DNA of 64,000 bases from Acidobacteriaceae bacterium KBS 146 (GTDB lineage Bacteria; Acidobacteriota; Terriglobia; Terriglobales; Acidobacteriaceae): contig JHVA01000001.1 of NCBI GenBank assembly GCA_000688615.1, forward strand, positions 1,984,001 through 2,048,000, written 5' to 3'. Each line of letters opens with the position of its first letter. Positions within the stretch are counted from its first letter, which is position 1. The notes beneath the pieces were generated by a model. It was not told where the DNA came from and ran no database searches. It saw only the letters and a list, made by a program, of their open reading frames with translations. Made by a program: the position numbers and the translations under genes. Positions 18,794-39,770 of this stretch are shown piece by piece.

Positions 18794-18815
18794 AGACGTT
18801 TTGAACCTGCACAGC

Positions 18816-22085
<3,270 letters not shown>

Positions 22086-22302
22086 GAAGTTGGCTCCTTC
22101 TCGCTTTTAAATTGATTTCCGGGAGCAGTCTGTCCCCGGTTTGTGCTGGGCCTCGGAGCTGACGAGGCGGGTCTTTATCTAGGGCTCCAGGTCGCTGGCT
22201 GTTCGAAGGTGTGCCGTCGTACGGGCTACATCCTGGGGAGCGAAACGGGCTGAAGTCTTGCGGAAACGGTTGACGTGATTCACATATCCTTCACGTCTTG
22301 CA
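22086..22302 (-). other. long nrdJ leader
   Basis: If transcription starts just downstream of the predicted -10, the untranslated leader is about 215 bases. I looked for cobalamin-riboswitch landmarks because the enzyme uses B12 but found no GCCACTG-type B12 box, so I make no riboswitch call. Only the AAGGAG ribosome site near 22095 is clear. Confidence 0.4.
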
Positions 22303-22552: not shown

Positions 22553-25500
22553 TCAGGAGGTCCGCACGGGAAGATGACGATCCAGCCAGGTCCGTACCCG
22601 GTCGGAGGAGCCATAGTGCTGACCCAGGCGCCGGTAGCTCTCAAACTGGGACTCACTGAACCACTGATCGACCGTTGAGGTATTGGGGAAGGTCGGATTT
22701 TCTTTGCGGAAGTTCACAAGGTCGGCCGGAAGATCGCGGATATAGACGGACTTGATGTACAGGATCTGGCCAACGGTACCGTTGGGGTAGCGTATGGTTC
22801 CGGAGACAGAGGGATAGGGGCTGGCTGGAGGGGTGCCGGTAGCTTCGAGCTGGGTCAGGTCGAGTGTAATTTCGGCACCGTGATCGATGCGGCACTTTCG
22901 GATGGCCATGCCGATGCCCTGGAAGTTGAGATCTCCGTCCTGCTCGGCATCGCAGATGATGATGGTGGTGCAGTGACGGCGCACCAGTTCGTAGAGGCCC
23001 ATGTTTTCGAAGTGACCGCCGTCTGTGAGGTAAACAAAGGCAGCCTCGTCGTTGACCATGCCGAACAGCTCGGCAAGCAGATAAAACAGCCCAAACCACG
23101 GCGAGGACGGATTGCTGTGACGTCCGCGCAGACGGAATCGCTTATGCCGCGGATTGCGAATCCAGAGGCCAAGCCGCACGTTGAAGATGGTGAGCAGAAA
23201 GGCCATGGTGGGGCTGGAATGAAAGCCCCAGTTGGGGCTCATGGCAGCGCCCGAGGTTGCGACAGCCGTCGCCATGCGCGGACCTCCGTCTTGATAGGCG
23301 AAGCTCCGGGTTGGCGCGAAGCCGTTGAACTGTACGCGATCGGTGTCGGTCTCGGTCCAGCCGACGTCATATCCGCAGTAAAGCGGGGTGAAGGCGAAAG
23401 AGGTTCCTTTCCGTTCCTGATACGCCAGATCCTGACCGAAGGAGAGATTGAGCGTGGTACAGAAGATGGGAAATGGTCCCTGGTAGGTAGGCGGTTGCGG
23501 CTCGATGGTACAGAGATCGGGGCCGCAGGTGTTCGCCCACAGGTCTTTGAGACGGGCATCGTTGAAGCGCGCCGGAAGCAGGTCGATCAGGCGAAGCCGC
23601 TTATCGCTGCCTGCAAAACCGGTGAAGCGGTTTGGCCGTCGATCCGGATTGCTGGCTCCTGCGTAGCAGCGGGCAATACGGTCCCGATAAAAGGAATGCA
23701 GCGAGAATTCGTTGACATCAATTCTCCATCCGAAGAGCAAGGCCGTGAGTGCCAGCAGCACCAACAGACAGAAAAAATCGGAGTGAGGCAAAATCTGATC
23801 GCCGATCTGAGACTGAATGGAGGTCAAGGCCTTCTCAATAACCCACGAAAGCGTCAGCACAAGTCCGGCGATGAAGACCGGCGGCCCAATCAGTACCAGT
23901 CCATTCAACAGCATCGCCGACTTTGATCGCTCATCTTTTGGCGTGCCGCCGATAAACGCGCTCTTTCCTGCAAGCACACTGGCGACTGTGGTTCCGATCC
24001 ACCCCAGCCACAGCGGCTTGCCGACATGCGCTACATGAAAGAGCCAGGAGACGATCGCCGGACCGAGCAGCGAACTTGCAGTGAACGCAAACCAGACGAG
24101 GCCGAAGAGGAAGCTCCATGCGCGCAGCCGAGCGAACCACTCACGAACGGAGCCATCGACGAGATTTCCGACCAGACCGCCTGCGATCTCAATCGATACG
24201 AAGACGATCGTCAATCCCATCCATGGCAGTAGTGGAATCGCTGTACGCGTGACCTCCGGCAGAGGGAGAAAAAAAGAGGCGATAAAGATGATCAGCCGCG
24301 AGAGGTTGATGAGGACATAGCCGCAACCGACCGCGCCCGCCATGCCGAGCAAGACAATCAGGCGTCGCCAGTTCTGTGGAATCGCACGCGCGGCGGAAAG
24401 CACCAGTAGAGCGATTCCAAGCAGCATGGACGTAAACACCCAGGAGGTGGAGGTGTCGTCGTCGAATCCGTTCAACGGTTTCCACCAGCGGAACGAATAA
24501 GCCGACCACCAGGCGCGCAGATTATTCAGCGCGTCGGGCTCTCCTGGCGGAGGAATGGACGGCCTGGTGGAAGAGGCTTTGACTGGATCAGCAGGCTTAA
24601 ACTCCTCTTGCCGTTGCGCGAGTCGGTGCAGGTGGCTGATATGGATCCGGGTGCTGTAGGGAACCATCCCGGTGTTTTCAGGCCAGTCAACCGTATCTTT
24701 CACGCGATGCACGCGGTTCCAGTGACGCATCTCGCTGGCCGTGTGAGGCTCCGTCTGTGGAAGCGGGTTCCCTGCCCAGAACGATGATCGGTAGAGATAA
24801 GGACACAGAGCAAAGACGGAGATAAGAATTGGAACGAAGACCAGGCCCAGGACACCCACCTGCCCGAAGCCGGTCTCTTCCACAGGGTGGCAATGATCCG
24901 CAGGCGGGTGGATGAGTTGCGTGAAGAAGATGATGGCCGATGCGAACAGAAATCCGGCGAGGATGATGGCCGCGGTGAATAGACCGTGGTTAAGCAGAAA
25001 ATGCGCGATCCGTCCGCGAGAGCTCAGGTAGAAGTGCGGCAGCAGCATCACCAGCATGATCGAAGAGACGAGCACGATCTGATTGAGAAAGGTATTGCGC
25101 AACCAAACGGCGAAGGCAACCCATGTGTCCGCGGTGAACAGACCGGTGCGGGGCGTAAGGTAGTTGGAATAGCGCCGCAACCAGCGCAATGGCTCCGGCC
25201 AGAAAGAGCGCTGCGAGGGCGGACCGGGCAGGGGTTGGAGCTGCTGTTTAACCTTTTCGATGTTTTCGCACGAGATCCACGATGCAAAGAACTGATGGAT
25301 GTATCCGCCCCCCGACACCGTCGAGAGATAGTCAAAGGAGTTGATGCGGTCTAAGGCAGCGAGGCCCTGCAGAATTCCAAGATTGAAGGTGGCGCTCCGG
25401 ATTCCGCCTCCGGAAAAACAGATGCCGGTGAGGTGTATCTCATCGGCAACCGCATAAGCATCTTTCTCTGGATCGGAGGGTGGCCAGTGACCCTGTGCAG

Positions 25501-25810
25501 CAAGCTCCTGTTCGAGAATCCACTTTCCTGGAGGGTAGTCGGTCAAGGTCGCCAGCCTCGCCTGTGCGCGCGGCTCTCGATGGAGCAGTTTGGCCGTGGC
25601 CGGGGCATCCAGCGTTTCCAGCGCCGGAACAGAATTTTTAAAGGCGGCGTGCCAAGACTGGGTAAACGCTGCCTTTGCCTCATGCGCGGTGAACGCCCCG
25701 TGGCGCGAATGAATCTGCTGAGCCAGGCGGAGACAGTAGGCCTCAGCAGCGCCGTCGCGAAGTTCTGCTTCCTTCAGGAGTGGATCGAAGGGCTTGCCGC
25801 GTTCAGCCAT
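22553..25810 (-). CDS. large membrane-embedded patatin-like phospholipase
   Basis: The 1085-residue protein carries a patatin catalytic site split by a membrane region. Near residue 134 'GICFSGGGIRSATFNLGILQ' supplies the oxyanion loop, and S166 in 'YLSTVSGGGY' is the candidate nucleophile. The catalytic Asp is about D930 in 'YLTDGGHFENMGLYELVRR'. Between them lie roughly 750 residues with about ten hydrophobic helices (approximately residues 240-320, 460-700) and long loops. The enzyme would hydrolyse acyl esters at a membrane surface; the lipid is unknown. AAGGAG precedes the ATG. It stands apart from its neighbours, with HNH and Dabb genes upstream on the same strand. Confidence 0.8.
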   Translation of the reverse strand: MAERGKPFDPLLKEAELRDGAAEAYCLRLAQQIHSRHGAFTAHEAKAAFTQSWHAAFKNSVPALETLDAPATAKLLHREPRAQARLATLTDYPPGKWILEQELAAQGHWPPSDPEKDAYAVADEIHLTGICFSGGGIRSATFNLGILQGLAALDRINSFDYLSTVSGGGYIHQFFASWISCENIEKVKQQLQPLPGPPSQRSFWPEPLRWLRRYSNYLTPRTGLFTADTWVAFAVWLRNTFLNQIVLVSSIMLVMLLPHFYLSSRGRIAHFLLNHGLFTAAIILAGFLFASAIIFFTQLIHPPADHCHPVEETGFGQVGVLGLVFVPILISVFALCPYLYRSSFWAGNPLPQTEPHTASEMRHWNRVHRVKDTVDWPENTGMVPYSTRIHISHLHRLAQRQEEFKPADPVKASSTRPSIPPPGEPDALNNLRAWWSAYSFRWWKPLNGFDDDTSTSWVFTSMLLGIALLVLSAARAIPQNWRRLIVLLGMAGAVGCGYVLINLSRLIIFIASFFLPLPEVTRTAIPLLPWMGLTIVFVSIEIAGGLVGNLVDGSVREWFARLRAWSFLFGLVWFAFTASSLLGPAIVSWLFHVAHVGKPLWLGWIGTTVASVLAGKSAFIGGTPKDERSKSAMLLNGLVLIGPPVFIAGLVLTLSWVIEKALTSIQSQIGDQILPHSDFFCLLVLLALTALLFGWRIDVNEFSLHSFYRDRIARCYAGASNPDRRPNRFTGFAGSDKRLRLIDLLPARFNDARLKDLWANTCGPDLCTIEPQPPTYQGPFPIFCTTLNLSFGQDLAYQERKGTSFAFTPLYCGYDVGWTETDTDRVQFNGFAPTRSFAYQDGGPRMATAVATSGAAMSPNWGFHSSPTMAFLLTIFNVRLGLWIRNPRHKRFRLRGRHSNPSSPWFGLFYLLAELFGMVNDEAAFVYLTDGGHFENMGLYELVRRHCTTIIICDAEQDGDLNFQGIGMAIRKCRIDHGAEITLDLTQLEATGTPPASPYPSVSGTIRYPNGTVGQILYIKSVYIRDLPADLVNFRKENPTFPNTSTVDQWFSESQFESYRRLGQHYGSSDRVRTWLDRHLPVRTS

Positions 25811-34306: not shown

Positions 34307-35878
34307 GTGAGAAAAATTGTTAGTACAACCGCACTTGTTGCAGCCTTAGTCATCTCTGGACAGGCGTTTGGCCAGAGCAAATCGAATACGTCCACGGAAA
34401 AGAAGCAGACCAAGACTCGTGCCCTTCGTGACAACCAGATGGATAACGTCACCGCCGCAGGCGAAGAGAACTCCGCGCTTGCCGCCAACAACTCGACCGT
34501 CAATGAGAACAACACAGGAAGCGTGTCGCTTTCCGGCAGCGCTCTCAATGCGGCCAAGGGCATCAATATTGTCAGCTCTTCCGATGCGACCGTCGCCAAC
34601 GGGGTCAATGTCTATAACGGCAGCCTGACCACGCAAGGCAACAGCGGCAGCGCTAATGTCAGCCAGAGCAACGATGTAATGCAGGAGAGCGGCGGAAACG
34701 CCACGCTCAGCGGATACAAGAGAGGCGCCAACTCGCAGCTCAACACATCGAGCGCGTCGGATGTGACCAGCAGCAGCTCATCCTCCGAGAGCCTCAACGC
34801 ATCCATCAATCACACCTCCAACCACACCAGGACCTCATCGCTTACCGAAACGGCGAACAGCAGCTCGTCCAAGAGCGCCAACTCCAGCAAGAACGCGGCT
34901 CAACAGGCCAGCGCAAGCAAGAACTCCACCTCTTCCATGACCTCGTCCGCGTCGAACTCGGCCAGCAAATCGGCCTCGTCGACGGATTCCTCCGCTTCCA
35001 ACAATGCCCAGAATGCGAGCAATGTGAAGTCGGCGTCATCCAGCGATAACTCGGCCGCGACCAAGAGCGCAACCAGCAACGCTACCTCCTCAGCTAGTTC
35101 CAGCGGAGCCACGGCCAGCGCGAATGCTCCCGACGGAAGCTCCACTTCGGTCGGAAACTCTGCCTTTAACAACAGCTCTTCCAGCAATGGAGCGACCTCT
35201 ACGACAACAGGCAACGGAGCTAACAACCTCTCCGCATCGAAGGGCGGATCGGCAAGCAACTCCACCACGAGCAACTCCGGAACCGCGAGCAACACGTCGA
35301 GCAGCGCTGACCAGTCCGCCTCCGCCAATAACTCTGCGTCGAATGTGAGCTCCGCATCGAACGCAGCCAAGAACGCGAACTCGGCCTCGAACTCCGCTTC
35401 CAACAACGCTGCGCAGAACGCGGATTCCTCGAACAAGAGCAAGTCGCAACAGAGCGCAAACAGCTCCAATAGCGCAAGCTCGGATGCCACACAGTCGGCT
35501 AAGAACGATTCTTCTTCCAGCACCGACACGCACTCCACCAGCTCGAGCAATTCAACTTCGGCGAGCCTGGCGACTAACGAAACAAAGTCCAAGTCCAATC
35601 ACAGCGTTAAGTCCTACAGCAAGGTTTATAACGTGCAGGGTGCCGTCAGCTTCGATGACGCCAGCGCGCATAACATCGCCGTAGATGGCTCGACGGTAAA
35701 CGCGACCAATAACTACACCGTATCGCTGGCTGGCTCAGCGCTTGCCAACGCAACCGCAATGAACATCGTCAATGCAGCCGGCGGCATGGTTGCAAACGGA
35801 GTCAACGTAGCCCGGACGTCGAACATGAACTCGACCCCGACGCTCTCGCAGTCCAATAGCATCAGCCAGGTCCGCTAA
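34307..35878 (+). CDS. FapC-like secreted Ser/Asn/Ala-rich protein (candidate functional amyloid)
   Basis: The 523-residue protein starts at GTG 34307, behind GGAGG with a five-base spacer. A signal peptide ends near residue 22 (QAFG). Next comes a basic linker and then L40-RDNQMDNVTAAG52, a double-glycine-like leader motif. Residues of about 60-130 and 445-523 are two related modules, each with NNxxxVSLSGSAL or NNYTVSLAGSAL, then INIV/MNIV, then VANGVNV and a final xSQSN motif. Between them lies a low-complexity stretch of some 300 residues made almost wholly of Ser, Asn, Ala, Thr and Lys. I see no Cys or Trp. The end modules and central linker recall FapC of Pseudomonas, but this is a fold-level comparison, not a proven homology. 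It heads a four-gene run with a C39 peptidase and a barrel. Confidence 0.6.
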   Translation: MRKIVSTTALVAALVISGQAFGQSKSNTSTEKKQTKTRALRDNQMDNVTAAGEENSALAANNSTVNENNTGSVSLSGSALNAAKGINIVSSSDATVANGVNVYNGSLTTQGNSGSANVSQSNDVMQESGGNATLSGYKRGANSQLNTSSASDVTSSSSSSESLNASINHTSNHTRTSSLTETANSSSSKSANSSKNAAQQASASKNSTSSMTSSASNSASKSASSTDSSASNNAQNASNVKSASSSDNSAATKSATSNATSSASSSGATASANAPDGSSTSVGNSAFNNSSSSNGATSTTTGNGANNLSASKGGSASNSTTSNSGTASNTSSSADQSASANNSASNVSSASNAAKNANSASNSASNNAAQNADSSNKSKSQQSANSSNSASSDATQSAKNDSSSSTDTHSTSSSNSTSASLATNETKSKSNHSVKSYSKVYNVQGAVSFDDASAHNIAVDGSTVNATNNYTVSLAGSALANATAMNIVNAAGGMVANGVNVARTSNMNSTPTLSQSNSISQVR

Positions 35879-35977
35879 GCGCGGGCCAGCGTATTGCGAG
35901 GGTCCGGCGCGCATTCCCTCCATGCCGGATCCCCGCAGGCGCTTCCCTCGCTCCTTCACTGGATTCAAGGAGTTAAT

Positions 35978-36427
35978 ATGCAACGAATTCTCGTGATGGC
36001 GGTCCTGACCATGTTGGGGTCAGCAGGCCTGGCCGTAGCTGGCGCACAGACGCCGGCACGGACTCAGGCGTCGACACCAAGCCGCGTGCAAACAAAGGCG
36101 AAACCTCTGAGTGACGATGCGCTCGACAAGGTCACGGCCGGAACCGTTTCGGCCGGGATCTCCGACGGCGTTGTTCGCTTTCAGGGGCAGACCCCAACTG
36201 CAAACGGCCTGGTCTCGAGCACAGGTTCGCTCGCTATCCAGAGCGGACCCATTGGTGGAATCACGATGGGCACGCTCAGCCTGAACGGTAACGCGGAACA
36301 GAACCTGAGTTCTCTGGTCAACATCAATGCGGTGAACTCGAAGATCAACGTCCTGCTTAACCTCAACGTCAACATCAACTCAACTGTGAGCACCCTGACA
36401 CAGTCGAACTTGAATGGAAAACCCTGA
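35978..36427 (+). CDS. small secreted FapB/FapE-like protein
   Basis: The 149-residue protein starts at ATG 35978 behind AAGGAG. It has a signal peptide (MQRILVMAVLTMLGSAGLAV), a basic linker and the motif L44-SDDALDKVTAG55, the same pattern as in the preceding gene. The mature part is Asn/Ser/Val-rich, built from short strands ('SLVNINAVNSKINVLLNLNV') and ends in TLTQSNLNG, close to the TLSQSNS ending of the neighbour. It has no Cys. A minor amyloid, nucleator or secreted companion (like FapB or FapE) is the likeliest role. Its stop overlaps the C39 gene start by one base. Confidence 0.55.
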   Translation: MQRILVMAVLTMLGSAGLAVAGAQTPARTQASTPSRVQTKAKPLSDDALDKVTAGTVSAGISDGVVRFQGQTPTANGLVSSTGSLAIQSGPIGGITMGTLSLNGNAEQNLSSLVNINAVNSKINVLLNLNVNINSTVSTLTQSNLNGKP

Positions 36428-37125
36428 TGATCCTCCCTTCTGCCTGGTTCCGGCTCTGGTGTAGAGCAGCCGCGCTCGTTGTGGCGAGCTGCTTGTTCTT
36501 CCCGGCATCTGCGTCCTCTCAAACCAGAGAAGACGCAGATGCACAGGGAGGCAAAAAAATACGCAGCTTGAAAGAGATTCGCGGCGAAGGTGTCGTTCGC
36601 CAGAGATGGGATATGAGCTGCGGGGCGGCGGCGCTTAGCACTCTGTTGACCTACGAATTCCGAGACAATACTCCGGAGACAGCCATCGTCGTCTGGATTC
36701 TTCATCGTGTCGATCCGATCAAGGTTCGCGCACGTGGAGGATTCTCTCTTCTTGACCTCAAACGTTTCGCACAGGCCCGCGGGTATCGCGCCGAAGGCTA
36801 TGCCGGAATGTCGATCGAAGAGCTTGCATCGCAGAAGACGGCTGTCATCGTACCCATCCGACTGAAAGGCTTTGACCACTTCATCGTGGTGCGAAAGATC
36901 GCTGCAGGAAGTGTCATTATCGCTGATCCGGGCTTCGGGAACCTCACCATGAGAGTCGAGCGGTTTCAGTCTCTCTGGAAGGAAGGCATCGTCTTCATCG
37001 TGCACCCCCCGACCGACCTCATGCTGACCGAACAGAAGCCCAACATCGCGTCTCGCACGATTCCCGACCCCAGCATCATCCAGCGCGAGATTGGAGTCGC
37101 GATTCCACCCAATTACCTCTACTGA
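36427..37125 (+). CDS. exported C39-family cysteine peptidase (FapD-like)
   Basis: The 232-residue protein has a signal peptide of about 32 residues and a C39 peptidase domain. Q59 and C65 stand in 'VVRQRWDMSCGAAALSTLL', H151 in 'GFDHFIVVRK' and D167 in 'VIIADPGFGNLTM', matching the Cys-His-Asp triad and oxyanion Gln of bacteriocin-processing C39 domains. It lacks the ABC transporter parts, so it works alone in the periplasm like FapD. The probable substrates are the two proteins encoded just upstream, which carry a double-glycine-like site. The start overlaps the preceding stop (TGATG), implying coupled translation. Confidence 0.8.
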   Translation: MILPSAWFRLWCRAAALVVASCLFFPASASSQTREDADAQGGKKIRSLKEIRGEGVVRQRWDMSCGAAALSTLLTYEFRDNTPETAIVVWILHRVDPIKVRARGGFSLLDLKRFAQARGYRAEGYAGMSIEELASQKTAVIVPIRLKGFDHFIVVRKIAAGSVIIADPGFGNLTMRVERFQSLWKEGIVFIVHPPTDLMLTEQKPNIASRTIPDPSIIQREIGVAIPPNYLY

Positions 37126-37146
37126 GTTTTCAAAGGCCAGATTCCG

Positions 37147-38475
37147 ATGCAGACCATTCCGTTGAAACGCTTTTGCACAACACTCTTCCTCTGCTGCCTT
37201 ATTTGTTTGGCGCTGAAAACCGAGGCTCAGGAACGCAGCACCCAATCTCAACCTCAGCTCCAGCAACGTGCTCAGCCATCGAACCAGCCCATGTCAGAGC
37301 AGGAAGCCCTGCTGAATGCGGTTAATCAGAGGCTGAACGATGCGCTGCGAGAGCGGGATGCCATCATCCGCAACCTTCTGGAGCGTGTCCAGGAACTGGA
37401 GTGGCGCGTCAACGGTGGATTTACGACTTCGCCCAAAGACCTTGTCGCAGCTAAAACAGTCTCGGCTCCCGCTCCCGCTCCGCGCGCTGGAGCGGCGGCA
37501 GCCGTAACCTCCGTAGTGACGAACTCTGGTTACGACGCCGAAGAGCGACAGGCGAGCCAGGCCCTCGACCAGGCGCTGATCGTCCGCGGCGGTCTGCTGC
37601 TTCCGTCCGGGACGGTTGAGCTCGACAATACGACCTCTTATTTCAGCTCTACTACGGACCGGATCAACATCGACGGTTTCGCCCTGCTGCCGGTGCTGGT
37701 TGTCGGCGATATCGCTTCCCAGCGCGTCCGCAAGGATCTCTTGCTTCCGACCTTCTCGGCCCGGATGGGGCTTCCCTACAAGCTGCAGTTCGACACCTAC
37801 ATTCCCTACGGGTATCAGTTGAATCGCACTGTTGACGTCAACAATACCCAGACGTCTCAAAGCACCTTTGGGCTAGGCGACATTACCTTCGGCTTGTCAC
37901 GACAGCTGACTCTGGAACACGGCCGTATGCCTGACTTGCTGGCCAATGTGCGCTTCAAAACCACAACCGGCATTGACAGCTTCAATCTCAACAGCAGCCA
38001 GACTGCCCTTGGCACAGGGTTCTATGCCGTCCAAGGCAATCTGACAGCAGCCAAGTCGAATGATCCGGTGGTCTTTTTCGGCAATCTTTCTTACACCGCA
38101 AACCTGAATGGGACCCACTCCATTCCGGCGAACGATCCGGACAATCCCGGCCTGATGATCCCGGGGCACTTCAAACCTGGCGATTCGGTGGGTTTCCAGC
38201 TCGGCTCCATTCTGTCTCTGAATCCGGAGACCTCGATGACGATCGGCTGGGACCAACGATTCACTCGCGCGACAACACTCAATGACCAGACCATCCCCGC
38301 ATCGTTCCTCGTTGAAGGATCCTTGCGGCTTGGCGCCTCGTATCTCTACGCTCCAGGCCGAACGATCGACCTCAGCTTCGGCGTCGGCCTCACGCCAGAT
38401 ACCCCAAATCTGCAGTTCTCCGTCGGCCTTCCCATTCGGCGTGCGCTCTGGCACCCAAAGAACGGCGTCCATTGA
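37147..38475 (+). CDS. outer-membrane barrel with N-terminal coiled coil (FapF-like)
   Basis: The 442-residue protein has a signal peptide (about 29 residues), a Gln-rich stretch and a predicted coiled coil at roughly residues 53-85 ('ALLNAVNQRLNDALRERD', 'IIRNLLERVQELEWRVNG'). An Ala/Pro linker follows, then a transmembrane beta-barrel from about residue 140 to the end, with alternating aromatic strands. This order is that of FapF, the trimeric channel that exports Fap amyloid subunits. The family is also annotated as a general outer-membrane transporter, so the name rests on context. It lies 21 bases after the peptidase gene, in the same operon. Confidence 0.65.
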   Translation: MQTIPLKRFCTTLFLCCLICLALKTEAQERSTQSQPQLQQRAQPSNQPMSEQEALLNAVNQRLNDALRERDAIIRNLLERVQELEWRVNGGFTTSPKDLVAAKTVSAPAPAPRAGAAAAVTSVVTNSGYDAEERQASQALDQALIVRGGLLLPSGTVELDNTTSYFSSTTDRINIDGFALLPVLVVGDIASQRVRKDLLLPTFSARMGLPYKLQFDTYIPYGYQLNRTVDVNNTQTSQSTFGLGDITFGLSRQLTLEHGRMPDLLANVRFKTTTGIDSFNLNSSQTALGTGFYAVQGNLTAAKSNDPVVFFGNLSYTANLNGTHSIPANDPDNPGLMIPGHFKPGDSVGFQLGSILSLNPETSMTIGWDQRFTRATTLNDQTIPASFLVEGSLRLGASYLYAPGRTIDLSFGVGLTPDTPNLQFSVGLPIRRALWHPKNGVH

Positions 38476-38528: not shown

Positions 38529-39770
38529 TTACTTCGCGCTAACCACAGCTGAAGGCAGTGAATGGCAGTTGCTATGTGCGTTTTCGCCGGCAAACCGTGC
38601 GTCCACCCACATCCTCATCTCGGCCGCGGCAGAGGTCAGCACGGTTTCATGAGTGGCCGCTGGATAGACCATATATTCGATGGGAGATCCATCTCTACAG
38701 AGGGAGCGAGCCACGTCGTCAGTCCATGAGGGATTCACGGTGTCGTCCGCGGTGCCCTGGACTATCAGCGTAGGTACGCTTATCTTCAAAACACTCGGTT
38801 CATTCTCTGCCGCAATCTCCAGGATGCGAACGAGGTCGGCTTTTGGAAGAAACTGATCCTTTGGAATCGCTGTCGCCCAATATCCCTTGCTCACCGTGGC
38901 GGTGATGCAGGCCTGGCGAGTCTCCGGAAGATGATTCAACGCTTCGCGAGTGAGAATCTGATCCAGCTTGATCTCGGAATGATTGGAGGCAAATGACTCC
39001 AAAACGTACATCGCATACCCAAGCGCATACGAGGGCGCTGAGGCGCGCCTCATCGCGTTGAGTGTTGCCGCGATATGCGATGCGGGTGCGAGCGCGATAT
39101 CGCCCAGCAGCGTCAGCTCTGGAACGTAACGGGGAGCGAGGGCTGCAGTGAACAGATCGGCCTGGCCGCCTTGCGAATGCCCGATGACAACGTAGCGCGT
39201 TCCGATATGCGGGTCGATCTGGCGGGCGGCACGCAAAATGTCGAGTGCCCCGTGAGCCTCCGATGCCCCCTGCAGAAACGGATGCAGTCCTGGAGGACCC
39301 AGTCCCTGATAGTCAGTGGCGACCACAACGTATCCGCGCTTCACATAATCGTCCATCACAACTTCATGCATGCCGAGAAACGGGTGCTCCGGGCCATCTG
39401 GAGTGTCCAGGGACGGCGAGCACATGGAGACGATCCCGGTTGTGCCGTGGGTCCATGTCGTCACCGGCCACCCGCTGGCTGGTGGATCTCCTGCGGGAAT
39501 GGCGATCGTGCCAGTGACGGCAACATCCCTCCCGTCTTCGGTAGTGGAGTGATACATCACAAGGAGATTCCGCCCGGCGCTGGGAAGCGCTGCGGCATCG
39601 GTCAGGTTGCGTGATCGGATTACGCTGCCATGCGCGCCGATAGGAAGAGGAGAAGGAGGAACGTAGAATGCGTCGGCCTTGGGCGATTCAGCCAATCCCT
39701 GTAGAGACAGGATCGTAGAGAGAACAAAAGCAGATGCCATCCAAGGCATCCGAAACGGCAAAGACTGCAT
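38529..39770 (-). CDS. secreted lipase-like alpha/beta hydrolase
   Basis: The 413-residue protein has a signal peptide and an alpha/beta-hydrolase fold of the secretory-lipase type: 'WPVTTWTHGTTGIVSMCSPS' (oxyanion region), 'GYVVVATDYQGLGPPGLHPF', the nucleophile elbow GHSQGG in 'RYVVIGHSQGGQADLF', Asp in 'LIVQGTADDTVNPSWTDDVA' and His in 'VYPAATHETVLTSA'. The Ser-Asp-His triad is therefore complete. It hydrolyses esters outside the cytoplasm; the substrate is unknown. It faces the Fap-like cluster, with its stop 54 bases from the barrel stop. Confidence 0.85.
   Translation of the reverse strand: MQSLPFRMPWMASAFVLSTILSLQGLAESPKADAFYVPPSPLPIGAHGSVIRSRNLTDAAALPSAGRNLLVMYHSTTEDGRDVAVTGTIAIPAGDPPASGWPVTTWTHGTTGIVSMCSPSLDTPDGPEHPFLGMHEVVMDDYVKRGYVVVATDYQGLGPPGLHPFLQGASEAHGALDILRAARQIDPHIGTRYVVIGHSQGGQADLFTAALAPRYVPELTLLGDIALAPASHIAATLNAMRRASAPSYALGYAMYVLESFASNHSEIKLDQILTREALNHLPETRQACITATVSKGYWATAIPKDQFLPKADLVRILEIAAENEPSVLKISVPTLIVQGTADDTVNPSWTDDVARSLCRDGSPIEYMVYPAATHETVLTSAAAEMRMWVDARFAGENAHSNCHSLPSAVVSAK

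Follow-up and report, generated by a model that had tools for sequence, protein, structure and literature searches.

Does a run of four genes in the genome of Acidobacteriaceae bacterium KBS 146 encode a Fap amyloid system, and what does the peptidase of such a system cut? The genes form four successive + strand ORFs at 34307-38475 of the window, the 64,000-nucleotide stretch of DNA analysed here. The first-pass annotation had read them as a Fap-like functional-amyloid secretion cluster. Its four consecutive same-strand genes are present where it placed them and its descriptions of all four stood, but it had overlooked a leader motif in both secreted proteins.

34307..35878, + strand: P1, large secreted substrate, 523 aa, GTG start
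35978..36427, + strand: P2, small Asn-rich secreted substrate, 149 aa, ATG start
36427..37125, + strand: C39 cysteine peptidase, stand-alone, Sec-exported, 232 aa
37147..38475, + strand: FapF-like outer-membrane barrel protein, 442 aa

A ribosome site (GGAGGAAGAA) precedes the GTG start of P1 at 34307, and P2 and the peptidase gene share one base, at the stop codon of the former and the start of the latter. No Rfam families were found, and no promoter or terminator signals rose above chance. Directly after the cassette and convergent with it, a secretory lipase-type alpha/beta hydrolase is encoded at 38529-39770 on the - strand (Pfam LIP, 4.9e-23); homology search found no LIP-type hydrolase around other cassette loci.

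The barrel protein is a homologue of FapF

The fourth protein matched the NCBIfam models for FapF (8e-26) and FilC (3.6e-16), in both cases under the curated equivalog cut-offs (700 bits for FapF), and a sequence search of the PDB returned FapF (5.7e-18). When the structure model (mean pLDDT 78) was submitted to Foldseek, 18 FapF chains ranked first (best E 1e-20) and the COG4313 channel came next; the top folds were FapF 5o65, 5o67 and 5o68, with TM scores of 0.81-0.89 on the target. These results indicated that the barrel is a FapF homologue. The coiled coil plus beta-barrel build proposed for this protein at first pass is seen in the model, which predicts a coiled-coil helix, a linker, a plug-like helix and a barrel.

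37297..37410, + strand: periplasmic coiled-coil helix of the barrel protein, predicted from the structure model
37525..37584, + strand: plug-like helix before the barrel, predicted from the structure model
37612..38445, + strand: beta-barrel strands, predicted from the structure model and fold search

In four barrel-type ORFs elsewhere, an HTH_17 domain (excisionase/MerR-like helix-turn-helix, Pfam E 1e-8 to 4e-10) occupies the place of the coiled coil. They come from a Nitrospirales MAG, Parahaliea, a distant Acidobacteriota genome and a betaproteobacterium. The domain lies behind a signal-like start, so that a DNA-binding-type fold is apparently sent to the periplasm.

L077:6702-8066, L078:6674-7948, L019:6986-8359, L095:6420-7670: HTH_17-bearing barrel-type ORFs next to a stand-alone C39

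The peptidase is related to FapD and lies outside the FapD clade

The third gene encodes a Peptidase_C39 protein (Pfam E 2.6e-17) with a Sec-like signal and without ABC transporter domains, in agreement with its earlier description as a stand-alone exported C39, and the catalytic residues Q59, C65, H151 and D167 are all intact. Against NCBIfam it matched FilB (3.3e-33) and FapD (2.7e-30), both under the curated equivalog cut-offs (330 bits for FapD). In a tree of 76 stand-alone C39 domains, midpoint-rooted so that only the split is interpretable, the acidobacterial C39s formed a single clade (support 100/99) on the same side as those of P1/P2-type proteobacterial loci and a large small-substrate group, and FapD and FilB lay across a branch with 100/97 support. 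The earlier equation of this peptidase with FapD holds as far as homology to FapD and FilB; the sub-cut-off score and the position outside the FapD clade do not make it a FapD orthologue. The C39 copy of distant Acidobacteriota (L010 / L019, G122) is interrupted by a TAG stop codon and is possibly decaying.

P1 and P2 have no family match

From its N to its C terminus, P1 is built of a Sec signal, a basic linker, a putative C39 leader, an N module, a low-complexity middle and a C module.

34307..34375, + strand: Sec signal peptide of P1 (VRKIVSTTALVAALVISGQAFGQ), approximate, read from sequence
34424..34459, + strand: C39-type leader core of P1 (LRDNQMDNVTAA), predicted cut after the core
34460..34684, + strand: N-terminal module of P1, from profile comparison
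34760..35605, + strand: Ser/Ala/Asn/Thr-rich low-complexity middle of P1, from composition
35606..35875, + strand: C-terminal module of P1, homologue of the N module, ends TLSQSNSISQVR
36107..36142, + strand: C39-type leader core of P2 (LSDDALDKVTAG), predicted cut after the core

Profile comparison showed that the end modules are homologous to each other (E 2.6e-16, 42% identity), which bears out their reported duplication. The middle had been described as a 300-residue linker; it is long and of low complexity, with a measured length of ~280 residues (Ser 37%, Ala 17%, Asn 15%, Thr 10%). Long antisense open frames cross this Ser/Asn-rich part at 34900-35598 on the - strand and most likely reflect the biased codon usage for serine and alanine.

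Neither P1 nor P2 matched a family in Pfam or NCBIfam, and their earlier identification as FapC and FapB was not sustained. The hhalign comparisons against FapB/C repeats were not significant (E 0.011 to 0.014); an E of 0.011 was judged too weak to make FapC repeats of the P1 modules, and P2 gave no significant match to FapB. FapE, also considered for P2, gave no significant match either: P2 and the FapE mature region align at the mature start, and both follow a leader, at an E of 0.24. For mature P2, the AlphaFold model was of too low quality (pLDDT 57) to support an amyloid fold. Members of the P2 family were found in Acidobacteria, Gammaproteobacteria and deltaproteobacterial lineages.

A predicted C39-type leader behind the Sec signal

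The double-glycine leader cut by the C39 domain of bacteriocin exporters has hydrophobic residues at -12, -7 and -4 and small residues at -2 and -1. P1 and P2 match this spacing in a bacteriocin-type leader that follows the Sec signal and precedes the mature part, ALRDNQMDNVTAA before GEEN in P1 and PLSDDALDKVTAG before TVSA in P2. What is new here, as read from the sequence, is that both secreted proteins bear a C39 leader behind a Sec signal, which suggests that both would be cut after the leader by the C39 peptidase. The leader was present in all copies of P1 and P2 that were compared within the lineage. Among 33 distinct acidobacterial leaders, gathered with a regex that already demands part of the pattern, position -12 is invariably L/I/M, -7 M/L, -4 V/I, -3 T and -2 A. 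The residue at -1 varies among leaders (G, A, S, K, R, Q).

A strict DNA pattern for the leader occurred twice in the genome's own 5.0 Mb, both times in the P1/P2 genes, and control matches numbered 0. Over 300 family genomes the pattern gave ~0.5 matches per genome, many of them resembling methyltransferase FDxVTA motifs. Because of these chance matches, the own-genome count is support rather than proof, and the DNA pattern was dropped as a survey tool. In the open-access literature, searched as main text without supplementary files, no paper was found that names such a leader.

The cassette is conserved and patchily distributed

The four-gene cassette is kept in ~25 Acidobacteriaceae loci with differing flanks (one neighbour set in L011-L015, others in L016-L018). 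Conservation of gene order in relatives had been proposed as a check, and the order P1-P2-C39-barrel proved constant wherever the cassette occurs in the family. Its distribution is patchy: of 151 genomes of the class, 10 had the peptidase by protein search, and a FapD-family search was positive in 19 of 396 genomes of the phylum, mostly from the window's own genus. Edaphobacter, Granulicella and related MAGs (L020-L036), plus many Proteobacteria, were found in a scan of named genomes. The suggestion that the locus would extend a system described mainly from Proteobacteria is overtaken by a 2018 report of neighbouring FapD-FapF pairs in five further phyla (PMC6173800).

P2 is recognisable in Marinobacter, Desulfuromusa, other Proteobacteria and deltaproteobacterial MAGs (L037, L038, L040-L045), and the P1 end modules in most of these loci. 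The window cassette belongs with this P1/P2-type class, with which it shares the P2 family, the P1 end modules, the leader, the exported C39 and the FapF-like barrel. In these other loci, however, the P1 middle is not Ser/Asn-rich, two or three large substrates are often present and the gene order varies.

Some alpha- and betaproteobacterial loci contain rows of four to six small, diverse Sec-exported proteins, each leader-bearing, that adjoin a C39 and usually a barrel. The rows of L059, L074 and L084 matched nothing in Pfam, and NCBIfam families only marginally.

L084:113-2219, L075:3658-5849, L074:6929-9723, L059:6833-9032: small-protein row loci

The leader recurs next to C39 peptidases of other lineages

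A score matrix trained on acidobacterial leaders alone was applied to Sec-like ORFs of other lineages, the exported ORFs being picked by a crude rule. At a threshold of >= 8 bits, 53 of 183 exported-like ORFs near a C39 were positive compared to 0 of 174 in a background of twenty 20-kb random regions (Fisher 5.6e-18, although such p-values overstate the certainty because the loci are related and the gene calls crude). A looser regex, some of whose matches were visibly spurious, was applied with one representative per 60%-identity C39 cluster, each the best locus of its cluster. It was positive in 52 of 139 ORFs near a C39 and in 19 of 601 in the background. By this regex 23 of 28 clusters across several phyla were leader-positive, and reading by hand revealed leader-like motifs in three of the five negative clusters (L050, L078, L095).

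Genuine FapE and FilA-type proteins carry a similar predicted leader

In the order searched, FapE scored above the NCBIfam cut-off in four genomes. In the fap operons of these genomes the protein, a genuine Pseudomonas FapE, reads ...AESLFRPIE-LKDQELAQLRGK before YVMPGRVISFG, and leaders of the wider FapE family include VPEEQLSEIRGK (before F), LSDSELAQQRGR (before F), LTDEELNQVRGG (before Y) and VAATTLDATRGG (before F), at the place corresponding to the P1/P2 leader. FilA-type DUF6160 proteins have the leader MDDAALSGVTGQ before DGI. FapA has a leader-like motif (LSDSDFAGVTSG) that is less convincing, because published mass spectrometry saw peptides throughout FapA (PMC5557850). The main fibre proteins FapB and FapC of Pseudomonas have no leader, so that passage through the pore cannot in every case depend on it.

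Since 2017 the target of FapD has been called unclear (PMC5557850, PMC6173800) and the Fap proteins said to lack canonical C39 sites; in the 2017 work, FapE alone lost N-terminal peptides in mass spectrometry and FapC secretion required the catalytic Cys of FapD (PMC5557850). A 2025 review states that FapD is thought to process FapE (PMC12822426). That Pseudomonas FapE has the leader as well suggests where the protease of the machine may cut. We lean toward the view that the Sec signal and the C39 leader behind it act together as a general two-step address to FapF-like pores, in use across several phyla (in systems of the Fap, Fil, Nap-like, P1/P2 and small-protein types), and that the FapE leader is the long-sought FapD site. 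A Fap-like cassette in Acidobacteria is a modest claim by itself; the leader adds a testable answer on the FapD target, an exact predicted cut site that was first seen in a distant cassette, then in genuine FapE, and that is accessible to point mutation. If this view is true, Fap, Fil, Nap-like and many unnamed loci would be one secretion class, and the motif would help to find their substrates, which for the most part match no family in the libraries.

Proposed mechanism and alternatives

The best explanation of the locus, to which we assign a probability of roughly three in four, is a hybrid secretion cassette of Fap-like kind whose substrates bear two tags. Sec would carry P1 and P2 over the inner membrane, after which the exported periplasmic C39 would recognise the double-glycine-type leader behind the Sec signal and cut after VTA[GA]. 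The periplasmic coiled coil of the FapF-like barrel, presumably a trimer, may capture the unfolded mature chains, which would pass through the pore to the surface. Once outside, P2 would probably join with the related Asn-rich end modules of P1 to build a fibre or an adhesive layer, and the Ser/Asn-rich P1 middle would be a flexible region at the surface. The second tag plausibly keeps the subunits secretion-incompetent or docked until it is cut. The gene set, the homologies, the leader and the conservation were computed directly; fibre or amyloid formation is suggested by analogy, from the Asn-rich modules and the relatives of the pore.

The cassette is real and conserved, and represents a variant within the hybrid secretion class of Fap and Fil. 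With the Pseudomonas FapABCDEF system it shares a stand-alone Sec-exported C39, a FapF barrel with coiled coil and plug helix, Asn-rich secreted proteins and, in FapE, the same kind of leader. It is nevertheless unlikely to be a plain acidobacterial fap operon in which P1 is FapC, P2 is FapB and the product is the Fap amyloid fibre. The side-by-side FapF and FapD relatives and the Asn-rich, repeated end modules, with a short visual likeness between the P1 modules and FapC repeats (weak profile score, 0.011), would fit such an operon, but P1 and P2 show no family match or significant profile similarity, all secreted proteins of the cassette bear the leader whereas Pseudomonas FapB and FapC do not, and P1 has its long Ser/Asn-rich middle. 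No FapA, FapB, FapC or FapE is recognisable in the cassette, and no fifth cassette gene that could be FapA was found in related loci, although some accepted fap operons also lack FapA (PMC3792158). Since the C39 splits from FapD and FilB in the tree while barrel and peptidase are homologous to Fap components, the locus is a Fap relative and not a fap operon, and membership in the fap operon family is not supported.

The Fil system (FilB C39, FilC barrel, DUF6160) is similar in that its C39 adjoins the barrel and its substrates have a Sec signal and a leader, there ending TGQ. However, Fil substrates are DUF6160 proteins and are followed by further outer-membrane and lipoprotein-like genes, whereas the window cassette has no DUF6160 substrates and its C39 belongs to a clade separate from FilB.

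Catalytically dead C39-like domains serve as chaperones in some type 1 systems. The window C39 could by that precedent be a chaperone or, as processing of the FapF linker has been proposed (PMC5557850), a trimmer of the barrel, and the motif could have another role, such as coiled-coil docking. We regard this as improbable, given that the catalytic residues are all retained and that the motif has textbook C39 leader spacing at the start of the mature part.

The Neisseria Nap island, compared by its published description, combines GG peptides, a C39 peptidase and a FapF relative, but its peptides are small and cationic with a role in autolysis (PMC11798529). Bacteriocin ABC exporters share the double-glycine leader consensus and the C39 domain; theirs, however, lies within a cytosolic ABC exporter, whereas the window C39 is exported without an ABC part and its substrate would cross by Sec first. 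That the secreted proteins are antimicrobial or lytic, as in a bacteriocin-like or Nap-like island, and not fibre subunits is quite improbable: the bacteriocin type of the leader, the several small leader-bearing proteins per locus in relatives outside the lineage and the Nap precedent favour it, but P1 has 523 residues of mostly low complexity compared to class II microcins of <10 kDa, the cassette has no immunity-like gene, and the Asn-rich units formed by P2 and the P1 modules are kept in different phyla, which resembles structural subunits more.

Other genes in the window

A 1085-residue protein encoded at 22553-25810 on the - strand has a patatin-like GGGIRSATFNLGILQGL stretch and no Pfam match at 1e-5. 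The + strand ORF at 18801-22115, which is without family matches, is the equally long shadow of a class II (B12-dependent) ribonucleotide reductase gene at 18816-22085 on the - strand (Pfam 1.8e-134).
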